In this document: in pieces, positions 3,130 to 29,213 of the stretch
How positions within the stretch are numbered: position 1 is the stretch's first letter
Layout of the letters: every line of letters starts with the position of its first letter
DNA from: Methylophilales bacterium 28-44-11
GTDB lineage: Bacteria; Pseudomonadota; Gammaproteobacteria; Burkholderiales; Methylophilaceae
Direction of reading: 5' to 3'
DNA length: 40,767 nucleotides
Assembly: GCA_002281475.1 (NCBI GenBank)
Contig: NCGC01000021.1
Span: 1-40,767 of the forward strand
The notes under the pieces: generated by a model
Database searches by the model: none
The model's input: the letters and a program-made list of their open reading frames with translations, nothing else
What the model was told of the DNA's origin: nothing
Made by a program: the position numbers and the translations under genes

Positions 3130-4479
3130 TTATCCAATGTGAAATGGATGTTCTAACACAATAGTTTCATCACGCTCAGGGCCTGTAGACACAATTGCAA
3201 TGGGTACGCCGCACAAAGCTTCTAAGCGCTTCAAATACACTTGCGCATTGTTGGGTAAACCATCCCACGTTTTAACCCCGAACGTATTGTCATGCCAGCC
3301 CGCCACAGTTTCGTAAATGGGCTTACAACGCGCAACATCGTCTGCGCCCACCGGCAACATATCCACTACTTGACCATCTAGCTCGTAGCCAGTACAGATA
3401 TTCAAACTATCAATGCCATCTAATACATCCAACTTGGTAATACACAAACCAGTTAAGCCGTTAATACGGGCTGAACGACGAAGCGCAGCTGCGTCAAACC
3501 AACCACAACGGCGTTTACGTTTAGTCACCGTACCAATTTCTTGTCCTTTATTCGACATTTGATAGCCCGGCACACCGACAGTTTCAATGTCAAGCTCACT
3601 TGGAAAAGGACCACCACCCACACGTGTGGTATACGCTTTGGTGATACCTAATACATAATGCAACATATTGGCACCAACGCCGGTACCAGCTGAGGCTTGA
3701 CCGGCAATACAATTACTAGAAGTCACATAAGGATAAGTACCGTGGTCAATGTCCAACAATGTTCCTTGTGCGCCCTCAAATAATAGATTTTCGCCACGCG
3801 CATTGGCTGCATACAACTCAGCAGAAATGTCGCTCACCATCGGTTTTAGCGCCAGCGCATGTTGCATACTAGCATCATATTGTTGATTAAAATCAACCGC
3901 TTGCGCACCCAAATATTGCGTTAAGACAAAATTATGATAATCCATCACTTCGCGTAACTTGTCAGCAAAGCGCTCAGGATAGAACAAGTCATATACACGT
4001 AATGCACGACGCGCTACTTTGTCTTCATAAGTAGGGCCAATGCCTTTACCTGTTGTACCAATTTTTTTGTCTATGCTACGTTTGGCTTCTCTGGCTACGT
4101 CGACTGCGACGTGATGACTTAAAATCAGCGGGCAACCAGGGCTTAGTTTTAAACGACTTTTAACCTCTAGCCCGCCTTTTTCTAGTGTATCTATTTCGCT
4201 GAGCAAGTGCCCAGCATCGAGCACAACGCCGTTACCGATATAGCAATTCACACCCGCGCGCACAATGCCCGATGGCACTAAATTCAACTTGTAAATACGT
4301 TGGTCAGCACCTTGGCCAACCACTAGGGTGTGCCCTGCATTATGCCCCCCTTGGAATCTAACCACGCCTTGCGCATGATCCGTTAACCAATCAACGATTT
4401 TGCCTTTACCTTCATCGCCCCATTGCGTGCCAATGACGACTACATTTTTTGCTTGATGCTTGCTTGATTGATTTGCCAT
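3130..4479 (-). CDS. purA: Adenylosuccinate synthetase
   Basis: PurA converts IMP, aspartate and GTP to adenylosuccinate, the first committed step to AMP, in the cytoplasm. The 449-residue product has the GDEGKGK phosphate loop at residues 21-27, the GGHNAGHT block near residues 44-51, [12 protein letters not shown] near 143, [12 protein letters not shown] near 290 and TKLDVLDG near 348, all diagnostic. The length is slightly above the usual 430 because of a short N-terminal extension before [12 protein letters not shown]. It lies 57 nt downstream of hisZ and is followed directly by dmrB, so a purine gene heads the H4MPT cofactor genes. No independent promoter is obvious in the hisZ-purA gap. 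Confidence 0.97.
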
Positions 4480-8014: not shown

Positions 8015-9142
8015 TTATGCGTACGCACTTTCTTCTGTGCTTAATTGTTTCAATAAATGCTGATACTCAGTGAGTGCCAGCTTCAAATCATCGATACCTG
8101 TACCATCGATGGCTGAAATTCTTACCTTGGAAATCTTACCATACTCATCGCGTTCCAAGCCTGGTGGCATGCCGACACGATCTATCTGGTTAAGCACCAA
8201 AATTTGGTGTACATGCGATGCGCCAATTTCATTCAGCACTAAATTAACCTGTGCTATCTGCGCATCACGATTGGTACTGGATACATCTACTACATGAATT
8301 AATAAATCAGCTTGCGCAGCTTCTTCCAATGTTGCACCAAACGCCTCAATCAGCGTAGTAGGCAAATGCTTGATAAATCCAACCGTATCTGACAACACAA
8401 TCGGATAAGTATCAGGTAAATACATCTTGCGCGAGGTGGTATCCAATGTGGCGAACAATTGATCAGCCGCATAGACGCCAGAATGCGTTAAACGATTAAA
8501 CAAGGTTGATTTGCCTGCATTGGTATACCCAACAATAGAGACCGTCATCAAGTGAGATCGTTTACGTGCTCTGCGTTGCATCCCTCGTTGCTGCTTCAAC
8601 TTCGCCAGCTTTTCTTTAAGTTGTTTTACTCGCACGCGCAACATGCGTCGGTCTAATTCAAGCTGAGTTTCACCTGGTCCACCACGCACACCGATACCAC
8701 CCTTTTGACGCTCCAAATGGGTCCAGCCGCGCACCAACCTAGTAGATAAATGCTCAAGTTGTGCTAATTCAACCTGCAATTTACCTTCATGGGTTTGTGC
8801 ACGCTGCGCAAAAATATCAAGAATTAGGCCGGTACGATCCACCACACGTGCTTGTAAAAAACGCTCTAGGTTTCGTTGCTGTGACGGACTCAAATCGTGA
8901 TTAAACGCAACAACCTTTGACTCGCTAGATTCAAGCATGAGTTTGAGTTCATCAGCTTTACCAGAACCTATGAAATACTTAGCATCTGGCGTTTGACGCT
9001 TGCCCTCAACCGTGGCACGAATTTGCATGCCAGCGGTCGTGACTAAGTGGCGGAGTTCATGCATACTTTCTGCATAATCAGGCTCACCAAAATCAACACT
9101 GACTAATACTACGGCGTCGCCACCAGATGGTCTTTCAAACAT
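8015..9142 (-). CDS. hflX: GTPase HflX, ribosome-associated
   Basis: HflX is a GTPase that binds the large ribosomal subunit and can split stalled ribosomes. The 375-residue product has an N-terminal HflX domain (FIGSGKADEL near residues 57-66), the GGIGVRGGPGETQLE segment at residues 148-162, a basic helical linker (residues about 165-197), and a G domain with the P-loop GYTNAGKS at 205-212, a DTVGFI switch and NQID as the guanine-specificity motif. The start ATG lies 6 nt after the hfq stop codon, so the two are translationally linked as in other proteobacteria. Confidence 0.96.
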   Translation of the reverse strand: MFERPSGGDAVVLVSVDFGEPDYAESMHELRHLVTTAGMQIRATVEGKRQTPDAKYFIGSGKADELKLMLESSESKVVAFNHDLSPSQQRNLERFLQARVVDRTGLILDIFAQRAQTHEGKLQVELAQLEHLSTRLVRGWTHLERQKGGIGVRGGPGETQLELDRRMLRVRVKQLKEKLAKLKQQRGMQRRARKRSHLMTVSIVGYTNAGKSTLFNRLTHSGVYAADQLFATLDTTSRKMYLPDTYPIVLSDTVGFIKHLPTTLIEAFGATLEEAAQADLLIHVVDVSSTNRDAQIAQVNLVLNEIGASHVHQILVLNQIDRVGMPPGLERDEYGKISKVRISAIDGTGIDDLKLALTEYQHLLKQLSTEESAYA

Positions 9143-20464: not shown

Positions 20465-21127
20465 TTAGGCCAATACTAAAATTTCTGCCTTCCCAAGACC
20501 AGACACATCCCCCATCCAGCGTTGTACACGCATTTGTGTCAAGGTAGCAAATCGGGTATCGAGTGTTTTAAATGACTGGTAAAGGATATTTAAAAATGGC
20601 AAGGTGTGCCAGCCACAATCTAACCAAGTGGCTTGTAACGTTGGCGTTTGCGCCAGTAAAAGTGTACCGCGCTTCATGCCAAATCCAAGTCGAGCCCCAG
20701 TATTTCCGAGAACGCCTAGAGTACCGGCTTTCATGCTTGACGCGCAATACTCTCCTGCATCCCCTTCAATCAAGAGCATGCCTCTACGCATGCTATCACC
20801 CGCGCGTTCGCCCACACTCCCCTTACAAATCAGTACGCCACCTTGCATCGCCGCACCAATAAAATCTCCCGCATCACCTTCCACCGTTATTTGACCAGAT
20901 TTCATTTGATAACCCACATAATCAAGTGAATGCGTGGCCTGCTTAAAGATGATTTGATTCACATTTTCACCTGTTACATCAAATACATCTGCAACAATCA
21001 GGTGCTGACTTAAGCGCATGGCTTTGATTTCTGCCAATGTTTTTTGTGCCAGATGCTGCGGCGTCAATAATCGGCAATCTATTTTGGTTGTCACAGGTGG
21101 TTTTAAGGTCAATATCAACGCTGTCAT
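20465..21127 (-). CDS. fhcC: Formyltransferase/hydrolase complex subunit C, shortened
   Basis: FhcC is the parallel beta-helix subunit of the Fhc complex, homologous to archaeal FwdC/FmdC, and helps hold the complex that turns formyl-H4MPT into formate. The C-terminal beta-helix repeats are plain: EGDAGDFIGAAMQGG, GSVGERAGDSMRRGM, GDAGEYCASSMKAGT, GNTGARLGFGMKRGT. The product is only 220 residues, whereas family members are about 270. I count about five helix turns instead of seven, and the usual LPGxxxGM insertion is missing. The alignment break falls after GDAGDFIGAAM, suggesting an in-frame loss between repeats. The ATG overlaps the fhcD stop codon (ATGA). Identity is certain; whether the protein works is not. 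Confidence 0.9.
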   Translation of the reverse strand: MTALILTLKPPVTTKIDCRLLTPQHLAQKTLAEIKAMRLSQHLIVADVFDVTGENVNQIIFKQATHSLDYVGYQMKSGQITVEGDAGDFIGAAMQGGVLICKGSVGERAGDSMRRGMLLIEGDAGEYCASSMKAGTLGVLGNTGARLGFGMKRGTLLLAQTPTLQATWLDCGWHTLPFLNILYQSFKTLDTRFATLTQMRVQRWMGDVSGLGKAEILVLA

Positions 21128-22062
21128 GCTGAGGTTGCTCCCGCTAAATTTCCTTGCAAGATTGGCTGCAATTTAAAATGATGTTGCCCTAACTTGCCAC
21201 CATAATTACCAGCAGAAATACGTTTGATACCAGCGCTAGCGCCTAAGTGACACGCTGCCTCAATGCCAACTTTCATGGAGAGGGCAATATCTTCGAATGT
21301 CAGCCCATCAATCACGATTTCCATCACACTTTCAATGTCCATATCGAGCTCGGTGTTGACCACGCCTTTTAATGTGGGGCAAAACGCATCATTGGTACTG
21401 GCAAACAATTTGGGATATTTACTTCCCACTTTTGAACCTGAACGCACCACCCCACCTGGAAAAGGCATAATCACATTGGGTATTTTTTTCATTGCCTCAA
21501 TCGCGGCCTCACAAGCTGCGAGCACTTGCGGCTGACTTTGTCCTAATACCAAAAAGTTACCACCACCAATCGCACGCACCATGCCCGTGGTTTCTTGTGT
21601 TAAAAATTCACCGTCCATCACAGGAATACGCCAATAGCGTTGATTCACACCATTGGCATCGGGAATCAATTTGGACACCTGATTGCCATCGCCAAAATAG
21701 CGCAGATGCTTACCTAAGCTAATTTGATCATCTGATGCAATACCTGAAAAAGCTGCCGCCGTCGGGCAAGTCAATATACATTGACCCATGCGTGTTTCCA
21801 ACTGTTGCATCAACACTTTGCTACCCATGGCAAACATCAATACAGCCACCCCTGGCCGCCCATCAGGTGTTTCATCCGGTGTTAATTCACGTTCGATACC
21901 CGCCTCTACGCCACAGCCGATCACACTGGTGGCAAAACCAGTCATGGCATTGGCAGCGTTGTAGGCCCATTTGAGATTGAGCGCAGTAATGATTACGCGC
22001 GTGCCACGCATATTGAATGCCTCAGCAAAAGTATCGTCTATGTGTACGCCATTGATATTCAT
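21124..22062 (-). CDS. fhcD: Formylmethanofuran:H4MPT formyltransferase subunit
   Basis: FhcD (Ftr homologue) moves the formyl group between H4MPT and the methanofuran-like cofactor within the bacterial Fhc complex. The 312-residue sequence is full length. It opens with INGVHIDDTFAEAFNMRGTR, has TGFATSVIGCGVEAGIE near residues 42-58 and PDETPDGRPGVAVL near 62-75, and closes with the conserved GISAGNYGGKLGQHHF-type block (ISAGNYGGKLGQ near residues 285-296). No lesion is apparent. It follows the PPOX-family gene by 19 nt and overlaps fhcC by 4 nt. Confidence 0.95.
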   Translation of the reverse strand: MNINGVHIDDTFAEAFNMRGTRVIITALNLKWAYNAANAMTGFATSVIGCGVEAGIERELTPDETPDGRPGVAVLMFAMGSKVLMQQLETRMGQCILTCPTAAAFSGIASDDQISLGKHLRYFGDGNQVSKLIPDANGVNQRYWRIPVMDGEFLTQETTGMVRAIGGGNFLVLGQSQPQVLAACEAAIEAMKKIPNVIMPFPGGVVRSGSKVGSKYPKLFASTNDAFCPTLKGVVNTELDMDIESVMEIVIDGLTFEDIALSMKVGIEAACHLGASAGIKRISAGNYGGKLGQHHFKLQPILQGNLAGATSA

Positions 22063-22081: not shown

Positions 22082-22741
22082 TTATGCTTCTGGATGACCT
22101 GTTTTAATTTTTTCCACCCAACTGTTAATATCTATTGTGCCTAATGTTTCTACTTTTTCTTTGTCTTTTTCCAAAATCACATCTTGCATTAAATCAATAC
22201 GTTTCCATTCCGCAACAGGTGTTTCACATGCAGATCTTGGCACATATCGAGAGTCGCGTACTTTTTGCATCTGAGGGATATAGCGTGGGCAGTTTTGCCA
22301 TAACTCAGACAACTTCACCAAAACTACGAACTCAGCTTCTTTAAATTGAGATAACAAAGCAGGCTCTTTTGAAAGTGTGGCAGTCCCTTGTACACGAATG
22401 CGATGAGGTTTTTCAAACGAGATAAACAGTAGCCCTACTTGTGGGTTGGTACTGATGTTACCCATTGAAAAGAACATGCCGTTGCCGTCATAACTAGGGA
22501 ACATGAGCGTCGTTGCATCGATCACTTTCACAAAGCCAGCGTCACCGCCTTTAAATGAAACGGTAGGCCGTCCTTGGTGATCCACACTCGACAAGAAGAA
22601 CATGTCAAGGTGTTCGATAAACCCTTTTGCATCCTCATCAAACTCAGTTTTACAGGCAATCGCTTCCACCCGGTCCGCCAATTGCGTGGTCCCAAACGCG
22701 TCCTGTAATGTTCTGTGTTGCTCACCGTACAATCGACTCAT
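22082..22741 (-). CDS. PPOX-family flavoprotein inside the fhc operon
   Basis: A 219-residue protein of the pyridoxamine-5'-phosphate-oxidase-like FMN-binding split-barrel superfamily. Supporting sequence: FFLSSVDHQGRPTVSFKGGDAGFV at about residues 48-71, FPSYDGNGMFFSMGNISTNP near 97-116 and RIRVQGTAT near 133-141, typical of the small PPOX proteins found widely in bacteria; the true PdxH motifs are absent. The substrate is unknown, and a general oxidoreductase role is inferred. It lies between fhcA and fhcD, with gaps of 20 and 19 nt. The other fhc neighbours overlap by 4 nt, so it looks like an inserted gene. No intrinsic damage is seen. Confidence 0.85.
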   Translation of the reverse strand: MSRLYGEQHRTLQDAFGTTQLADRVEAIACKTEFDEDAKGFIEHLDMFFLSSVDHQGRPTVSFKGGDAGFVKVIDATTLMFPSYDGNGMFFSMGNISTNPQVGLLFISFEKPHRIRVQGTATLSKEPALLSQFKEAEFVVLVKLSELWQNCPRYIPQMQKVRDSRYVPRSACETPVAEWKRIDLMQDVILEKDKEKVETLGTIDINSWVEKIKTGHPEA

Positions 22742-22761: not shown

Positions 22762-24350
22762 TTATGATTTGAAATGATTGATGACTTGGTTGCGACCATC
22801 TTGCGCAATTTCATCATCACTCATTTTAAAGTTATCTAGTTGAATCGTATGGTATTTATCAAAGTAATCTTTTAGGCCTTTTTCTACACCGATATCAAAC
22901 GCAGGTTTTGAGGTGTGTGTTTTGCCCCATACCACTTTGACGACTTTGCCATCTTTCACCACTAACTCACCATCTTTAAATACATAGTCTGGTTTACTAA
23001 ACATGGCTTCTTTATCAGCTTGGTCGGTATACACTGTGATATCCGCGGCCGCACCTATGCTTAAGTGACCACGGTCATGCAGACCAATTAATTTGGCAGC
23101 TGCAGCGCGCGTCATGGTCGCGATCTCATACAGGCTATATTCACGATTCAGGCTGGTTAAATTACTCATGGCCTGCGCATCTAAATTGAGCTTGGCAAAG
23201 GCATCATTTCTAAATGTCTTATCCATCAATAAACGAATCAAATGCGGATAACTTGTGAATGGCGCACCTGCAAGGCATTGACGTAATTTTGATCATGATA
23301 TTTAAATGGCACTACGCCACAACCAGCATCGCATTCGATGTCCATGATCACCGATTTTTTTGGGTTGGCAATCTTGGCATTAAGATGTTGCATCATATTG
23401 TCGCCAGAAGCTGTCACGGTTTGCCCAAACAATATTTGGCCTACATCGGCACTAATATGTTTGTTAGCGTTGAGCGCTTGGGCAATTTGTGCCGCAGCAG
23501 ATGAGAATTTTTTGTCCCCCTCTGTGCCATAACTATGAAACTGAATATGTGTGAGATGCATGGGTATACCATCGCTGGCGCCCATCGTATCTAGGGTAGT
23601 TTGGAAATTACCCGCCGTGCCTAAATTATTGCAGTGCACGTGCAATGGCTTGGCTATACCAAGCTCATTCACTGCGCGACTCAAGCTCTGCAAAATTTGC
23701 CGTGGCGTCACTTGGTAATGCACATTATTTTCGTCTAAATTTAAACGACGCTGATTAAACTTAAAGGCAGAAATACCACCTGGGTTTACTACTTTAATAC
23801 CAATCGTTTGTGTAGAGTGCAAGGTCCAAGCCACATAATCATTGATGGCTTTTTGGTCAGCTTTTCCTGCCAGCAACCTTAAAAAGTAATCATCATTTCC
23901 CAACATGGCATAACCACCCTTGTCAATCATGGGAGTGTCGCCCATTTCCAAATGCGCCTGCCGCGCGTTAATCGCTAAAATCGCTGGCTCAAACGCAGCG
24001 GTATAACCCATCTCAATGTAGCGCATACCGGTATCTGTTGTGCTTGGCGTTACGTTGTGCGTACAACTTGGGGTGCAAATATGGGCTTCAGGCTCGCTTA
24101 AATTACGCGTTGCTTGATACTCTGGCAACATCATGCGCGCAATATTGACTTTGCCACCACCAATATGGCTATGCATATCAATCGCTCCTGCCATCACTAT
24201 TTTTCCATTTAAATCAATGGTTTGATGTATTTTTTCAGTGTCGCTCGGCTTTGCAACAATACGACCATCACGAATATATATATTTTCCGTGACACCATCT
24301 TTCCCCTGAGCAGGGTCAATCACTTTGGCGTTTTTCAATAACGTTATCAT
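22762..24350 (-). pseudogene. fhcA: Formyltransferase/hydrolase subunit A, broken by deletion/frameshift
   Basis: FhcA, homologous to FwdA, is the amidohydrolase-type subunit that hydrolyses the formyl group to formate. The first part (23238-24350, 370 codons) carries expected metal ligands: DMHSH (His60, His62), GIKVVNPGG (Lys186), HVHCNNLG (His237/239) and HLTHIQFH (His265/268). After YVNALQ the frame runs 11 codons to a stop. From 23268 a different frame continues correctly as GAPFTSYPHLIRLLMDK and runs to 22762. Between Q and G the family has about 25 residues, including the TTDHPN motif with the catalytic Asp; these are missing. A deletion of 3n+1 nt, about 70-80, explains both the loss and the frame change. 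The second frame has no ribosome site. The ATG overlaps the fhcB stop. Identity is certain; the size of the deletion is from memory of the family. Confidence 0.88.
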
Positions 24351-25579
24351 GCCAATTGTGCCTCCAATTGCTGTAATACTTCGGCCAAGGTCGGCAATGT
24401 ACTTTTACGTACTTTTTTCAATGGCAACACCACAGAGGAATCCACTCTAAATAAAGTCCCTGCGCTATCCAAACCAGGCGTTGCTACTGGAATAAACACT
24501 TCAGGCGGCGTTGTAAATACTGTACCGGGGTGCCCTAATACAATCATCGGCGCATGAAAATTAGGCAAAGGTTTATCTGGGCTAAAGCTATTGACCCAAA
24601 TCATCAAATCATGTGCCTCCAACGCGTGCTCACTCAAAGTGAGGCCATCTAGCCATGTATGCGCATAATTCACGGTGGTATCGCCATCGCTACCACCCAA
24701 AGCCAAACCCATCGCGCGAGATTGCTGATTCAACACCACCACACTCTCGGTAATATTTTGTATGGTGAGTTCAGCATGTGGAAAGTCCAAATCTTTCGCC
24801 ACCCAAACCAGCACCGCATATTTAGCTTGTTTCAGTTGCTCAACTAAAGCATTTAAGGCACTGATAGCAACACCTGCCACCGCTTCTACCTTAACAGGCT
24901 TGCCTTGCAACAAAGCACGCAATGCTGCGGTGACTTCTGGCAAGTCTTTAGTAGCGCATGGTATCACTGTTGGCTGCACCCTAGATGGGGTTACGCCGGG
25001 TGCGGTATTTAAATCATCCCCACCCAAATACACTATTTTGCGTGAATCAGGCTCGGTAAACATGGCGTCATCCACCCACACTGTGCGTTCAAAAAAGCGC
25101 GGATTGTGGCTGACCACATCCGTGCCAATCAGCACTATCATATCTGCACGGTTTTTTACTTCTGTAAGGGTTGTAGTTTGCCACCCAGTCGATTGCAACA
25201 CCTTAGTGTTACGCAAGGAGCTTTGCACATTCATGTGCATCATCTCTGCCTTGATTTTCTGTGCAAATGCATACGCGGCTCTAAATCCAGCAAGGTCGGT
25301 ACTCAAGCCTGCGATTAATGGTGATTGTGCTGTTGCCAACAACTCTGCTGCCCGGTCAAACGCATCTGCAAGGCTAACCGGCTTACCAGCAATCATGGGT
25401 GAGTGAGCGTTTAAAGGGCGAGAGAAAAATGTAACCGCTTTAGCACAGGTTTCGCCCGATTTTAGAGTGACCTCAGGCTTAGCGTCAGCACTTTGCCAAC
25501 TTACCGATACATCGTCACACAACAAGCCACAAGCCGGGCATGTTGCAAGCACATTTTGGGTTGAGGATATCGTTTGCAT
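24347..25579 (-). CDS. fhcB: Formyltransferase/hydrolase complex subunit B
   Basis: FhcB is homologous to the molybdopterin-binding FwdB/FmdB subunit of archaeal formylmethanofuran dehydrogenase, but in bacteria it serves the hydrolase complex and has no redox role. The 410-residue product has an N-terminal CPACGLLCDD (Cys14, Cys17, Cys21) and a GxTCAKAVTFF block near residues 41-52. Oxidoreductase-like segments follow, such as IVLIGTDVVSHNPRFFERTVW near residue 145. The archaeal form's redox cofactor ligand is not evident. ATG 25579 (MQTISSTQ) is preferred over a TTG 11 codons upstream. First gene of the fhc series; it overlaps fhcA by 4 nt. It appears intact. Confidence 0.9.
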   Translation of the reverse strand: MQTISSTQNVLATCPACGLLCDDVSVSWQSADAKPEVTLKSGETCAKAVTFFSRPLNAHSPMIAGKPVSLADAFDRAAELLATAQSPLIAGLSTDLAGFRAAYAFAQKIKAEMMHMNVQSSLRNTKVLQSTGWQTTTLTEVKNRADMIVLIGTDVVSHNPRFFERTVWVDDAMFTEPDSRKIVYLGGDDLNTAPGVTPSRVQPTVIPCATKDLPEVTAALRALLQGKPVKVEAVAGVAISALNALVEQLKQAKYAVLVWVAKDLDFPHAELTIQNITESVVVLNQQSRAMGLALGGSDGDTTVNYAHTWLDGLTLSEHALEAHDLMIWVNSFSPDKPLPNFHAPMIVLGHPGTVFTTPPEVFIPVATPGLDSAGTLFRVDSSVVLPLKKVRKSTLPTLAEVLQQLEAQLA

Positions 25580-25659: not shown

Positions 25660-25848
25660 CACAAATTCACCATTTCCACATCATAGCGCGTTCAATACCC
25701 ACATATTGCAGTATCAGCAGCAGAAATCATGCGCTATTCTTGGTTTTAATGCTAGCCATGCCGGATTAAGAAGACAAATTAAGTAAGCACCTCTAGGATG
25801 TTATGCATCACGATAATCCATAGGTTTGATAGGAGATTGTTTTCATGC

Positions 25849-25871
25849 GGCGGACTGTAAACGAGTCCGCC
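25849..25871. repeat. REP-like palindrome
   Basis: GGCGGACT (25849-25856) and AGTCCGCC (25864-25871) make a perfect 8-bp stem with a 7-nt loop. On the minus strand it is preceded by GTAGG, giving the GTAGGGCGGAnn...nnTCCGCC layout of short dispersed palindromes common in proteobacterial genomes. It could also act as an mRNA hairpin, but no T-run follows in either direction, so a terminator role is unlikely. Only one copy is seen in the window. Confidence 0.6.
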
Positions 25872-25880
25872 CTACGCGGG

Positions 25881-26384
25881 CTATCCCTTAAATAAATACC
25901 AATTACCGTCTACAGGCACGAAACATGTATCTGATTTCTTTACCATGTGACACTCTTCAAAGCTTTTTCTAATATCATGGGGAGGTTTTTTAAAATATAT
26001 AAATCCCCTCCATCTATCTACCAAAAATGCAACGCTTTCTTTTTCTTTTTGTAAGCAATTGTTGATTTTTGCCAAAATAAATAAATGACGATATTCGTCC
26101 CATCGTTTTTCACTAAAACCAATTTTTTTTCTTGGCCAAGACCAGTCGTTACTTAAGCGGGTGAATGTTGGCGCAATTCTTATGACCTTTGAGTCCTAAT
26201 GTTGCATTTTCAAAAGCATATTAATTTCAGTTTTATGTTCAAAAAACTGGGCTCTCAACTCTTTTTCTGTAGGCTTTTGGCTGCATGCAGTTATCAAAAG
26301 AACTGAAATAACCAATACACAAGCAACGAGTCTGAAACTAAAACGATAAGTCTTTGAATACATAATCCGAATTTTCTCAGTCAT
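25881..26384 (-). pseudogene. Small lipoprotein gene interrupted by an in-frame TAG
   Basis: From ATG 26384 (strong GGAGGG ribosome site) a 62-codon frame encodes a lipoprotein signal, with a hydrophobic segment ending at LLITAC (Cys34). After ELRAQFF and KMQH it stops at TAG 26196-26198. The same frame then stays open for 104 more codons to 25881 with protein-like content (APTFTRLSNDWSWPRKK, KRWDEYRHLF, DRWRGFIYFKK, CFVPVDGNWYLFKG). The simplest reading is a single lipoprotein of about 167 residues interrupted by a nonsense codon. Its Trp/Asp/Arg-rich C-terminal part resembles a family of small proteobacterial lipoproteins of unknown role that I recall only vaguely. If the stop is real, the short product would be a lipid-anchored stub. 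It lies 55 nt after the ABC exporter remnant. Confidence 0.7.
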
Positions 26385-26439
26385 TTTATTACCCTCCATA
26401 CATTTAAACTTTTGAACATTCTGCACCTCCTCATTACAA

Positions 26440-27488
26440 CTAATTGACCTCGGTTATATTTTGATTTTTCGTTTTAACTGACTCAGCCTTTCCTAACACC
26501 ACTGCCTCATCAACATTGAGTCCCTTAGGCAGTTGATGCGTGATGAACAGAATGGTGACTTTGCCTTTGAGCTTATTCACCGTCTGTGCAAAGTGTTCTG
26601 CAGTTTGTTGATCTAAGTTAGAAACCGCTTCATCAAAGATCAGCACTTTGGGCTGTTTAAGCAATGCTCTGGCAATGGCAATGCGCTGTTTTTGTCCACC
26701 ACTCAAACCTGTACCATTCTCACCTACGAAGGTTTGATAACCTTGCGGAAGCTTCTCAATAGCTTGGTGTATCTCTGCCAGTTGGCAAGCTTGGATGATT
26801 TGATCAAAGCTGGCGTGTGGATTGGCGAGAATGAGGTTGTCGTAGATGGTGCCAGAGAATAAGGTTGTTTCTTGTGGCACTACACCGAAGTGATTGCGCA
26901 ACTCGTTGGCCGCAAGATAGCGAATGTCTTGCCCATTGAGTTTGATATTGCCTTGTTGCGGTTGATAGAAACCAAGGAGGAGTTTAGCAAGAGTGCTTTT
27001 ACCGCACCCGCTTGGGCCCATCACCAATACACAATGCCCTGCTTGAATATTGAAAGTAAGGTTTTGATATAACCATGGTAAGTCATCACTATACTTAAAC
27101 CCAAACTATCAACTGTAATATTAGTAGCTTGCTGAATATTGGCTCTGGTAGGAATCAGTGTCACCGGTTCGGCTGGGGCGTTCATGACATCGCCTAACCG
27201 CTTGACTGCAATATCTGCTTGTTGAAACTCTTGCCAGAGCCCGACTAAACGCATCACCGGTTGTGACAATCTGCCGGAGAACATTTGAAACGCGACCAAC
27301 ATACCAATTGTGAAGTTGCTGTTGTGCATGACTAGCCAGGCACCCACGCACAGAATGGCAAGGGTTTGTAATTGTTCTAGGGTATTGGCAGCCGTGTTAT
27401 ACGTAATGGAAAGTTTACGGCTATCAAAGCTGGCATTGAGATAAGTGCTTAAGTAATTGCCAAAGGTTTGATTGGGTTCTAGACTCAT
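26440..27488 (-). pseudogene. Remnant of a type I secretion ABC exporter (HlyB/LapB-like)
   Basis: The C-terminal portion of a peptide/RTX-type exporter with fused membrane and ATPase domains. The first frame (from 27488) begins at SLEP near the end of the membrane domain and continues through LVAFQMFSGRLSQPVMRLVGLWQEFQQA. A one-base loss in a G run at about 27100-27102 breaks the frame. In the shifted frame FKYSDDLPWLYQNLTF continues without interruption into the ATPase: Walker A GPSGCGKST, signature GLSGGQKQR, Walker B VLIFDEA, ending at 26440. The N-terminal peptidase-like domain and most membrane helices, about 380 residues in full-length relatives, are absent. The 5' break lies just before the ndk leader, and no HlyD-type partner is present. 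Non-functional. Confidence 0.88.
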
Positions 27489-27647
27489 TTGTTATTTTTA
27501 TAGTATCTATAATCAATAGGCATCCTAGGTGAACGCTATCGTTAATTCAAGTAGATTATAAAATCTTCATTTATAAACAACATTAAAAATGCTAAAATTT
27601 GCGTTTAACGTAAGTTGTTCATTCATTTATTATTTTTTGGAGTTAAC

Positions 27648-28097: not shown

Positions 28098-29213
28098 TTG
28101 ATTAATTTACTTAATTTTAATCAACCTCAACTCGCCGACTACTTTATCAGTATCGGCGAGAAGCCTTTTCGCGCCAAGCAATTGATGCGCTGGATGTACC
28201 ATTTTGGGGTGCATGATGTTGGCCAAATGACGGATATCGCAAAAAGTCTGCGCGAAAAATTAGCTGTTGAAACTGAAATTCGATTACCCAATGTGCAGCT
28301 GGAGCAAGTCTCTAACGATGGTACGCGTAAGTGGTTGATTGGTACTGACGGCAAAGATGGTGCTGCAAACAGTGTTGAAACCGTGTTTATCCCAGAAGAT
28401 GATCGCGGTACGTTATGCATCTCAAGCCAAGTGGGTTGTGCTTTGGCGTGCACGTTTTGTAGCACGGGCGCGCAAGGGTTTAACCGCAATTTAAGTGTGG
28501 CCGAAATCATTGGACAGTTGGCAATTGCAAACCAATCACTGCGCAGTGAGTCGGGTTACGATTTGCTCTCGGCAAACGACCGTATTATTTCCAACGTAGT
28601 CATGATGGGTATGGGCGAGCCGCTCACCAACTATGATAACGTGGTGACTGCAATGCAGATTATGCTGGATGACAGTGCGTATGGTTTAAGCCGCCGCCGC
28701 TTGACACTTTCAACAAGCGGCATTGTGCCAGCGATGGACAGATTAAAAGAAGATTGCCCAGTGGCATTAGCCGTTTCGCTTCATGCACCAAACGATGCAC
28801 TGCGTGATGTGTTGGTGCCCATTAATCAAAAGTACCCGATTAAAGACTTAATGGCTGCATGTAACCGCTACCTAGAAAAAGCACCTCGTGATTTTGTGAC
28901 ATTTGAATATGTGATGTTGGATGGCATTAACGATACGGTGGAACATGCGCATGAATTGCTGGAAGTGATAAAACACGTGCCATGCAAGCTAAATCTGATT
29001 CCATTCAACCCTTTCCCCAATAGCGGTTACTCCACTTCCAAACCGCATAATATTCGTGTATTTCGTGATATTTTAATGAGTGCTGGTTATGTGGTCACCG
29101 TGCGCAAAACACGTGGTGAAGATATCGATGCTGCATGCGGGCAACTCGCAGGCAAAGTGTTAGATAAAACAAAACGCAGCTTAAAACATATTTCTGTACA
29201 GGCGGTATCCTAA
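28098..29213 (+). CDS. rlmN: Dual-specificity RNA methyltransferase RlmN
   Basis: RlmN is a radical-SAM enzyme that methylates C2 of adenosine 2503 in 23S rRNA and A37 of some tRNAs. The 371-residue protein has the CxxxCxxC cluster at Cys114, Cys118 and Cys121 ([12 protein letters not shown]), the [12 protein letters not shown] motif near residues 172-183, and the C-terminal [18 protein letters not shown] with the catalytic Cys. Translation appears to start at TTG 28098 (MINLLNF), preceded by an AAAGGG ribosome site 8 nt upstream; no ATG fits. Adjacent to pilW (no gap). Confidence 0.96.

Follow-up and report, generated by a model that had tools for sequence, protein, structure and literature searches.

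The fhcA gene of Methylophilales bacterium 28-44-11, a formaldehyde-oxidation gene in a member of a methanol-using family, raises the question of whether a break in a conserved gene of C1 metabolism belongs to the organism or to its draft genome. The gene lies at 22762-24350 on the minus strand of the stretch analysed here (the window, 40,767 bases of contig NCGC01000021.1), and is written in two reading frames. A sequence-only reading of the window had attributed the frame change to a deletion of about 70–80 nt, of length 3n+1, that inactivates fhcA. Our results bear out the description of the lesion. As to its origin, an error in the draft assembly (probability about 0.55) seems to us likelier than a real deletion of very recent date.

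Alignment of the DNA with five relatives (L032, L033, L034, L044 and L035) places a single gap of exactly 76 bp at 23268|23269, where the two frames had been said to join (23267-23270), and reveals no second gap inside fhcA; measured again in L032, L033 and L034, the gap is 76 bp each time. This length is 3 × 25 + 1, made up of the last base of the NALQ Gln codon and 25 codons. The 5′ part (23269..24350, minus strand; codons 1-361) is in frame and conserved, with 95–96% identity to the nearest relatives, and matches the FhcA profile TIGR03121 over positions 2-361 (471.6 bits). Its open frame continues in the wrong frame to 23238, giving an ORF of 370 amino acids (23238-24350). The gene therefore reads correctly to residue 361 and then resumes in another frame as the 3′ part (22762..23268, minus strand), equivalent to residues 387-554 (TIGR03121 387-554, 179.5 bits). 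Both halves thus resemble FhcA, the amidohydrolase subunit of the formyltransferase/hydrolase complex (PDB 6s6y; TIGR03121), and the FhcA of the relative L034 aligns with structure 6s6y over residues 1-537; unlike this FhcA, the window gene is short of 25 codons and one base in its middle, hence the frame change, and has no match to the full profile in one frame. As a repeat, the two sides of the joint share 0–1 base only.

The 25 residues lost include WAIGLE and TTDHPN, as had been proposed, and with the TTDHPN segment goes the strand-8 aspartate. The stretches DMHSHIGGG, IKVVNPGG, HVHCNN and HLTHIQFHSY are all present in the 5′ part, and those of L034 line up with 6s6y. We take the HSH, Lys and later His motifs of FhcA to belong to the metal site, and the Asp of TTDHPN to be the metal-site Asp of the amidohydrolase fold; an enzyme without this Asp should be dead. 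In formylmethanofuran dehydrogenases, the binuclear metal site is described as four His, one Asp and a carboxylysine, with a conserved Asp acting in catalysis, and the accessible text gives the metal-site Asp without a residue number (PMC11656701). FhcA cannot be made from fhcA as written in the window.

The segment is a constant feature of the gene in relatives. Each of the 21 genus mates has one full-length fhcA match, in one frame and with the motif, as do 76 of 80 related loci; of the other four, three stop at the end of a contig or locus, whereas L103 lacks the first 53 residues. TDHPN occurs in 78 of these 80 loci, the remaining two ending before reaching it, and the TTDHPN segment aligns across the three relatives of solved structure that were compared. 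In a set of 150 Methylophilaceae genomes taken from a larger group, an fhcA match is present in 109, and by count of rows 102 of the 109 are full length and in one frame. The seven others are the source genome itself, G094 (stops), G078 (without the first 52 positions), and G091, G124, G128 and G133, in which fhcA runs off a contig end or is divided between two contigs. No gap like that of the window was found among the 21 genus mates or the 80 related loci, and a natural short form of FhcA, the case that would have overturned the sequence-only reading, was not seen in these or in the other family genomes. Two genomes from other Methylophilaceae genera (G032 and G041) have two full-length fhcA matches each. 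The fhcA of G094 is an isolated remnant (contig C17; L258 1586-2648) with a frame change and stops in a 1.2-Mb genome; its pieces are only 44% and 56% identical to FhcA of the relative G009, and it was rejected as the same event. In the 4.3 kb around it there is no fhcB, fhcD or fhcC match better than E 5, and the other genomes of its genus, as listed, have no fhcA match. We read it as a foreign remnant or contamination.

A TIGR03121 search of the own assembly, 88.13% complete, found no second fhcA, and a 50-residue peptide spanning the gap found no copy of the lost segment there; an fhcA copy could still lie in the missing part of the draft, though every one of the 21 genus mates shows a single full-length match. 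The two fragments might themselves still be functional, either through frameshifting, or as two polypeptides that work together, or because a short FhcA is a natural form; they are indeed both open and conserved, and the second has a possible TTG start at 23241, within the end of the first. No decoding trick could restore 25 residues that are absent from the own assembly, just as the earlier claim that no simple frameshift restores the enzyme implies, and the conservation of the segment across the loci and solved relatives described above also speaks against this explanation. It is very improbable and, on sequence grounds, largely excluded.

Around fhcA, the other cluster genes found are open. 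fhcB (24347..25579, minus strand) is open and aligns end to end with the relatives G009 and G020, its match to TIGR03129 (E 9.2e-66, 222.1 bits) lying under the model cut-off of 327.8. fhcD (21124..22062, minus strand; TIGR03119 and NF002554) and fhcC (20465..21127, minus strand; TIGR03122) are open and over cut-off. A PPOX-type FMN flavoprotein gene within the cluster (22082..22741, minus strand; TIGR04025 below cut-off, PF01243 over cut-off) is also open. These family assignments come from a scan of 20 different window frames, a selection of its ORFs. The order fhcB-fhcA-(PPOX)-fhcD-fhcC is shared with G020, and fhcB, fhcD and fhcC are the neighbours expected from the formyltransferase/hydrolase complex cluster. 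Earlier mention of intact ‘neighbouring cofactor genes’ needs correcting, as none was seen and the neighbours are these four genes. On our reading of the alignment rows, fhcA is the only split gene in the window among those that have orthologues in G009 or G020, further split rows being paralogues, antisense frames or start differences. A chimeric contig was rejected, both sides being collinear with three relatives.

Several other features of this neighbourhood deserve mention in their own right. The PPOX gene, between fhcA and fhcD, has a relative of at least 50% identity in 39 of the 80 related fhc loci, some of which end too early to tell, and none in the G009 fhc locus (L034); it is a candidate for an accessory role in the Fhc complex. 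Between fhcB and ndk lies an insert (~25756-27600) that is absent from G009, G020 and G012 and, being upstream of the fhc cluster, may have changed the promoter of the cluster. It carries the remnant of an ABC exporter, with a break in its frame (26440-27027, with PF00005, and 27021-27488, with no Pfam match; both minus strand), the second broken gene of the window. Near the insert, rlmN (28098-29213) has 31 residues unique to the window vs 1, 3 and 8 in three relatives, and is a possible recombination tract.

The two halves of fhcA show no decay. Three of six window-relative comparisons gave a value of dN/dS (0.011, 0.014 and 0.022), dS being saturated in the rest; where computable, at dS near saturation, the ratio is as low as among relatives, and in these three comparisons no relaxed selection was seen. 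With neither relaxed selection nor several disabling changes, and one lesion only, the gene does not look like a decaying pseudogene. A very recent loss would give the same dN/dS, so the undecayed halves exclude only an old loss. Residues unique to one of four genomes number 6 in the window vs 2, 3 and 4 for one half, and 5 vs 3, 3 and 3 for the other; the window is also richest in unique residues in several other genes. Elsewhere in the genome mch and mtdB (both on contig C43) and three fae-type genes, a search for which had been advised, were found open, as were FTHFS and all other pathway genes tested.

The quality of the draft was judged from breaks elsewhere. The source genome is a draft of 234 contigs and 2,241,812 bases. 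Our sample of it, with the window, came to 559,857 bases (26,601 of them N), roughly a quarter of the total, and was compared with 1,385,000 of the 2,786,829 bases of G009, about half; matches below 60% identity were dropped (below 50% in the other-genome control). There is no N inside 50 of the 66 own stretches, the window included, and the other 16, short contigs, read as N throughout, apparently through masking. Five of 209 orthologues gave split rows, of which L242 was removed as false, alignment placing the difference upstream of a small gene. The four left are clean, frame-shifting gaps in otherwise conserved genes: fhcA (76 bp), cheR (161 bp) and an MCP gene (16 bp) on contig C171, and a metallo-beta-lactamase-fold gene (8 bp) on C127, the names coming from Pfam; this tally is without some small DNA-level deletions listed (14–25 bp). 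No gap among the four is as small as 1 or 2 bases, and internal stop codons are absent from the best matches of all 209 orthologues, seven rows with stops at residue 17 or earlier, or in the last 4 residues, having been dropped. Of five truncated rows viewed, three miss only the first 36–42 residues of a reference frame, another comes from an MCP paralogue, and the last (L228 on L164, residues 239-279 only) is without explanation; three further rows are in frame, with 8–10 residues, and two of them were viewed.

Contig C171 (9,493 bp; L123) also carries an exact adjacent duplication of 53 bp at the end of a cheZ-type gene (495-600), which is single in G009, in addition to the gaps in cheR (4008-4012) and the MCP gene (8084-8087). 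A search for adjacent exact duplications with units of 14–299 bp gave three in our sample (53, 24 and 18 bp), 10 in the 1,385,000 bases of G009, none of them with a unit above 35 bp, and none in 131,000 bases of G020 and G012.

Set against other genomes, the rate of breaks is not unusual. It is 3/208 without fhcA and 4/209 with it, compared with 3 splits in 501 gene-locus pairs from 80 other genomes, and the difference is not significant (Fisher p 0.37 and 0.20, respectively). The three control splits are one N run, one clean 128-bp gap (L085) and one small shift; a stop row (L095, residue 279 of 307) was not counted as a split. The gap in L085 (6695-7211) affects the PPOX gene in a draft genome from Baikal and is of the same kind as the fhcA break. 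A DNA-level control of ~79 kb aligned from G020 and G012, too small to weigh, gave two rows of 16–20 bp and no large gap; in the DNA-level comparison, sizes on minus-strand rows are 2 too large. In the sister draft G013, where L035 gives the same match as L004, both fhcD and mtdB are split. A parallel pathway loss there was rejected, as both breaks are runs of N, i.e. scaffold gaps. Like the fhcA gap of the window, they disrupt the frame of undecayed genes in this pathway, but they are marked by N and the fhcA gap is not.

If the assembly is at fault, two stretches of normal fhcA would have been joined with 76 bases of real sequence omitted, and the same omission seems to have occurred at a few other places in the draft; in that case the fhcBADC cluster of the organism would be an ordinary one and its formyltransferase/hydrolase complex would work. 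Faulty joining leaves gaps and unmerged overlaps of any size, and the 53-bp duplication on C171 is what two unmerged overlapping ends would give. Natural decay is expected to give stops and 1-bp shifts as well, so the spectrum of breaks is unlike decay. For these reasons we infer an origin of the gap in assembly rather than in the cell. The joint, being without a repeat, does not represent a repeat collapse, and the assembler would have needed reads or a scaffolding step across it. As the events are few (four) and the break rate is not significantly raised, the odds stay close to even.

The main rival, rated a little below even odds, is a real and very recent 76-bp deletion that inactivated FhcA in the strain or in part of its population. 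The cell would survive because methylotrophs using the RuMP cycle oxidise formaldehyde mainly by the cyclic 6-phosphogluconate dehydrogenase route, the H4MPT route being auxiliary, and genes for 6-phosphogluconate dehydrogenase, two hexulose-phosphate synthases, formate dehydrogenase and FTHFS are indeed present. The absence of N from the window and of a repeat from the joint agree with a true deletion, as does the ordinary break rate of the draft. In the accessible text of PMC4109929, the H4MPT route is called auxiliary in Methylophilaceae and one strain is reported without a true Fae; Ca. Methylopumilus and OM43 are reported, in the part of PMC6794327 available, to be without the pathway. 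Of the 150 family genomes, 41 have no fhcA match at 1e-20, and of 20 such genomes listed several are single-contig at about 99% completeness. Chemotaxis is given as one of the functions given up in pelagic lineages (PMC6794327, available part), which the cheR and MCP breaks would fit. Against a real deletion stand the open state of the other pathway genes tested, breaks without internal stops or 1–2 base shifts, the exact 53-bp duplication on the contig bearing two of these breaks, and an intact fhcA in 21/21 genus mates. All Methylophilus and Methylotenera are reported with the pathway (PMC6794327, available part), and transcripts of the H4MPT pathway, and none of the H4F route, are reported in the accessible text on an Arctic relative (PMC8262872), which argues that the pathway can matter. 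The inactivation claimed for fhcA thus holds for the gene as written; that the organism has lost FhcA is unproven, and an assembly error is somewhat more likely, given the lack of relaxed selection, the other genes open, and the further clean gaps and the duplication in the draft.

Should the deletion be real and very recent, it might be the first step of H4MPT-pathway loss, beginning with the hydrolase subunit while fhcB, fhcC, fhcD, mch, mtdB and fae are still open, and perhaps accompanied by fresh loss of chemotaxis genes; we hold this sequence of events to be possible, at clearly less than even odds. The same pathway would be hit as in Ca. Methylopumilus and OM43, in the same family, whereas there the pathway is reported absent (PMC6794327, available part) and in the window one gene has a clean gap with the others tested open. 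A true loss of fhcA would, it seems, be tolerated, perhaps not without cost, and be of a type already known, since the H4MPT route is auxiliary and alternative genes are present. The predicted loss of formate release from formyl-H4MPT was accordingly an overstated consequence. Whether it is a draft flaw, which is most likely, or a recent loss in a pathway that relatives lose, the break is not surprising. In a draft genome, a gap in a conserved gene is weak evidence for pathway loss even when it is clean and frame-shifting, has no repeat and no N is present in the sequence. If the deletion is true, it would mark the start of a pathway loss whose finished state the available literature describes, and its effect would be milder than first claimed, the pathway being auxiliary in the family (PMC4109929 and PMC6794327, accessible text).
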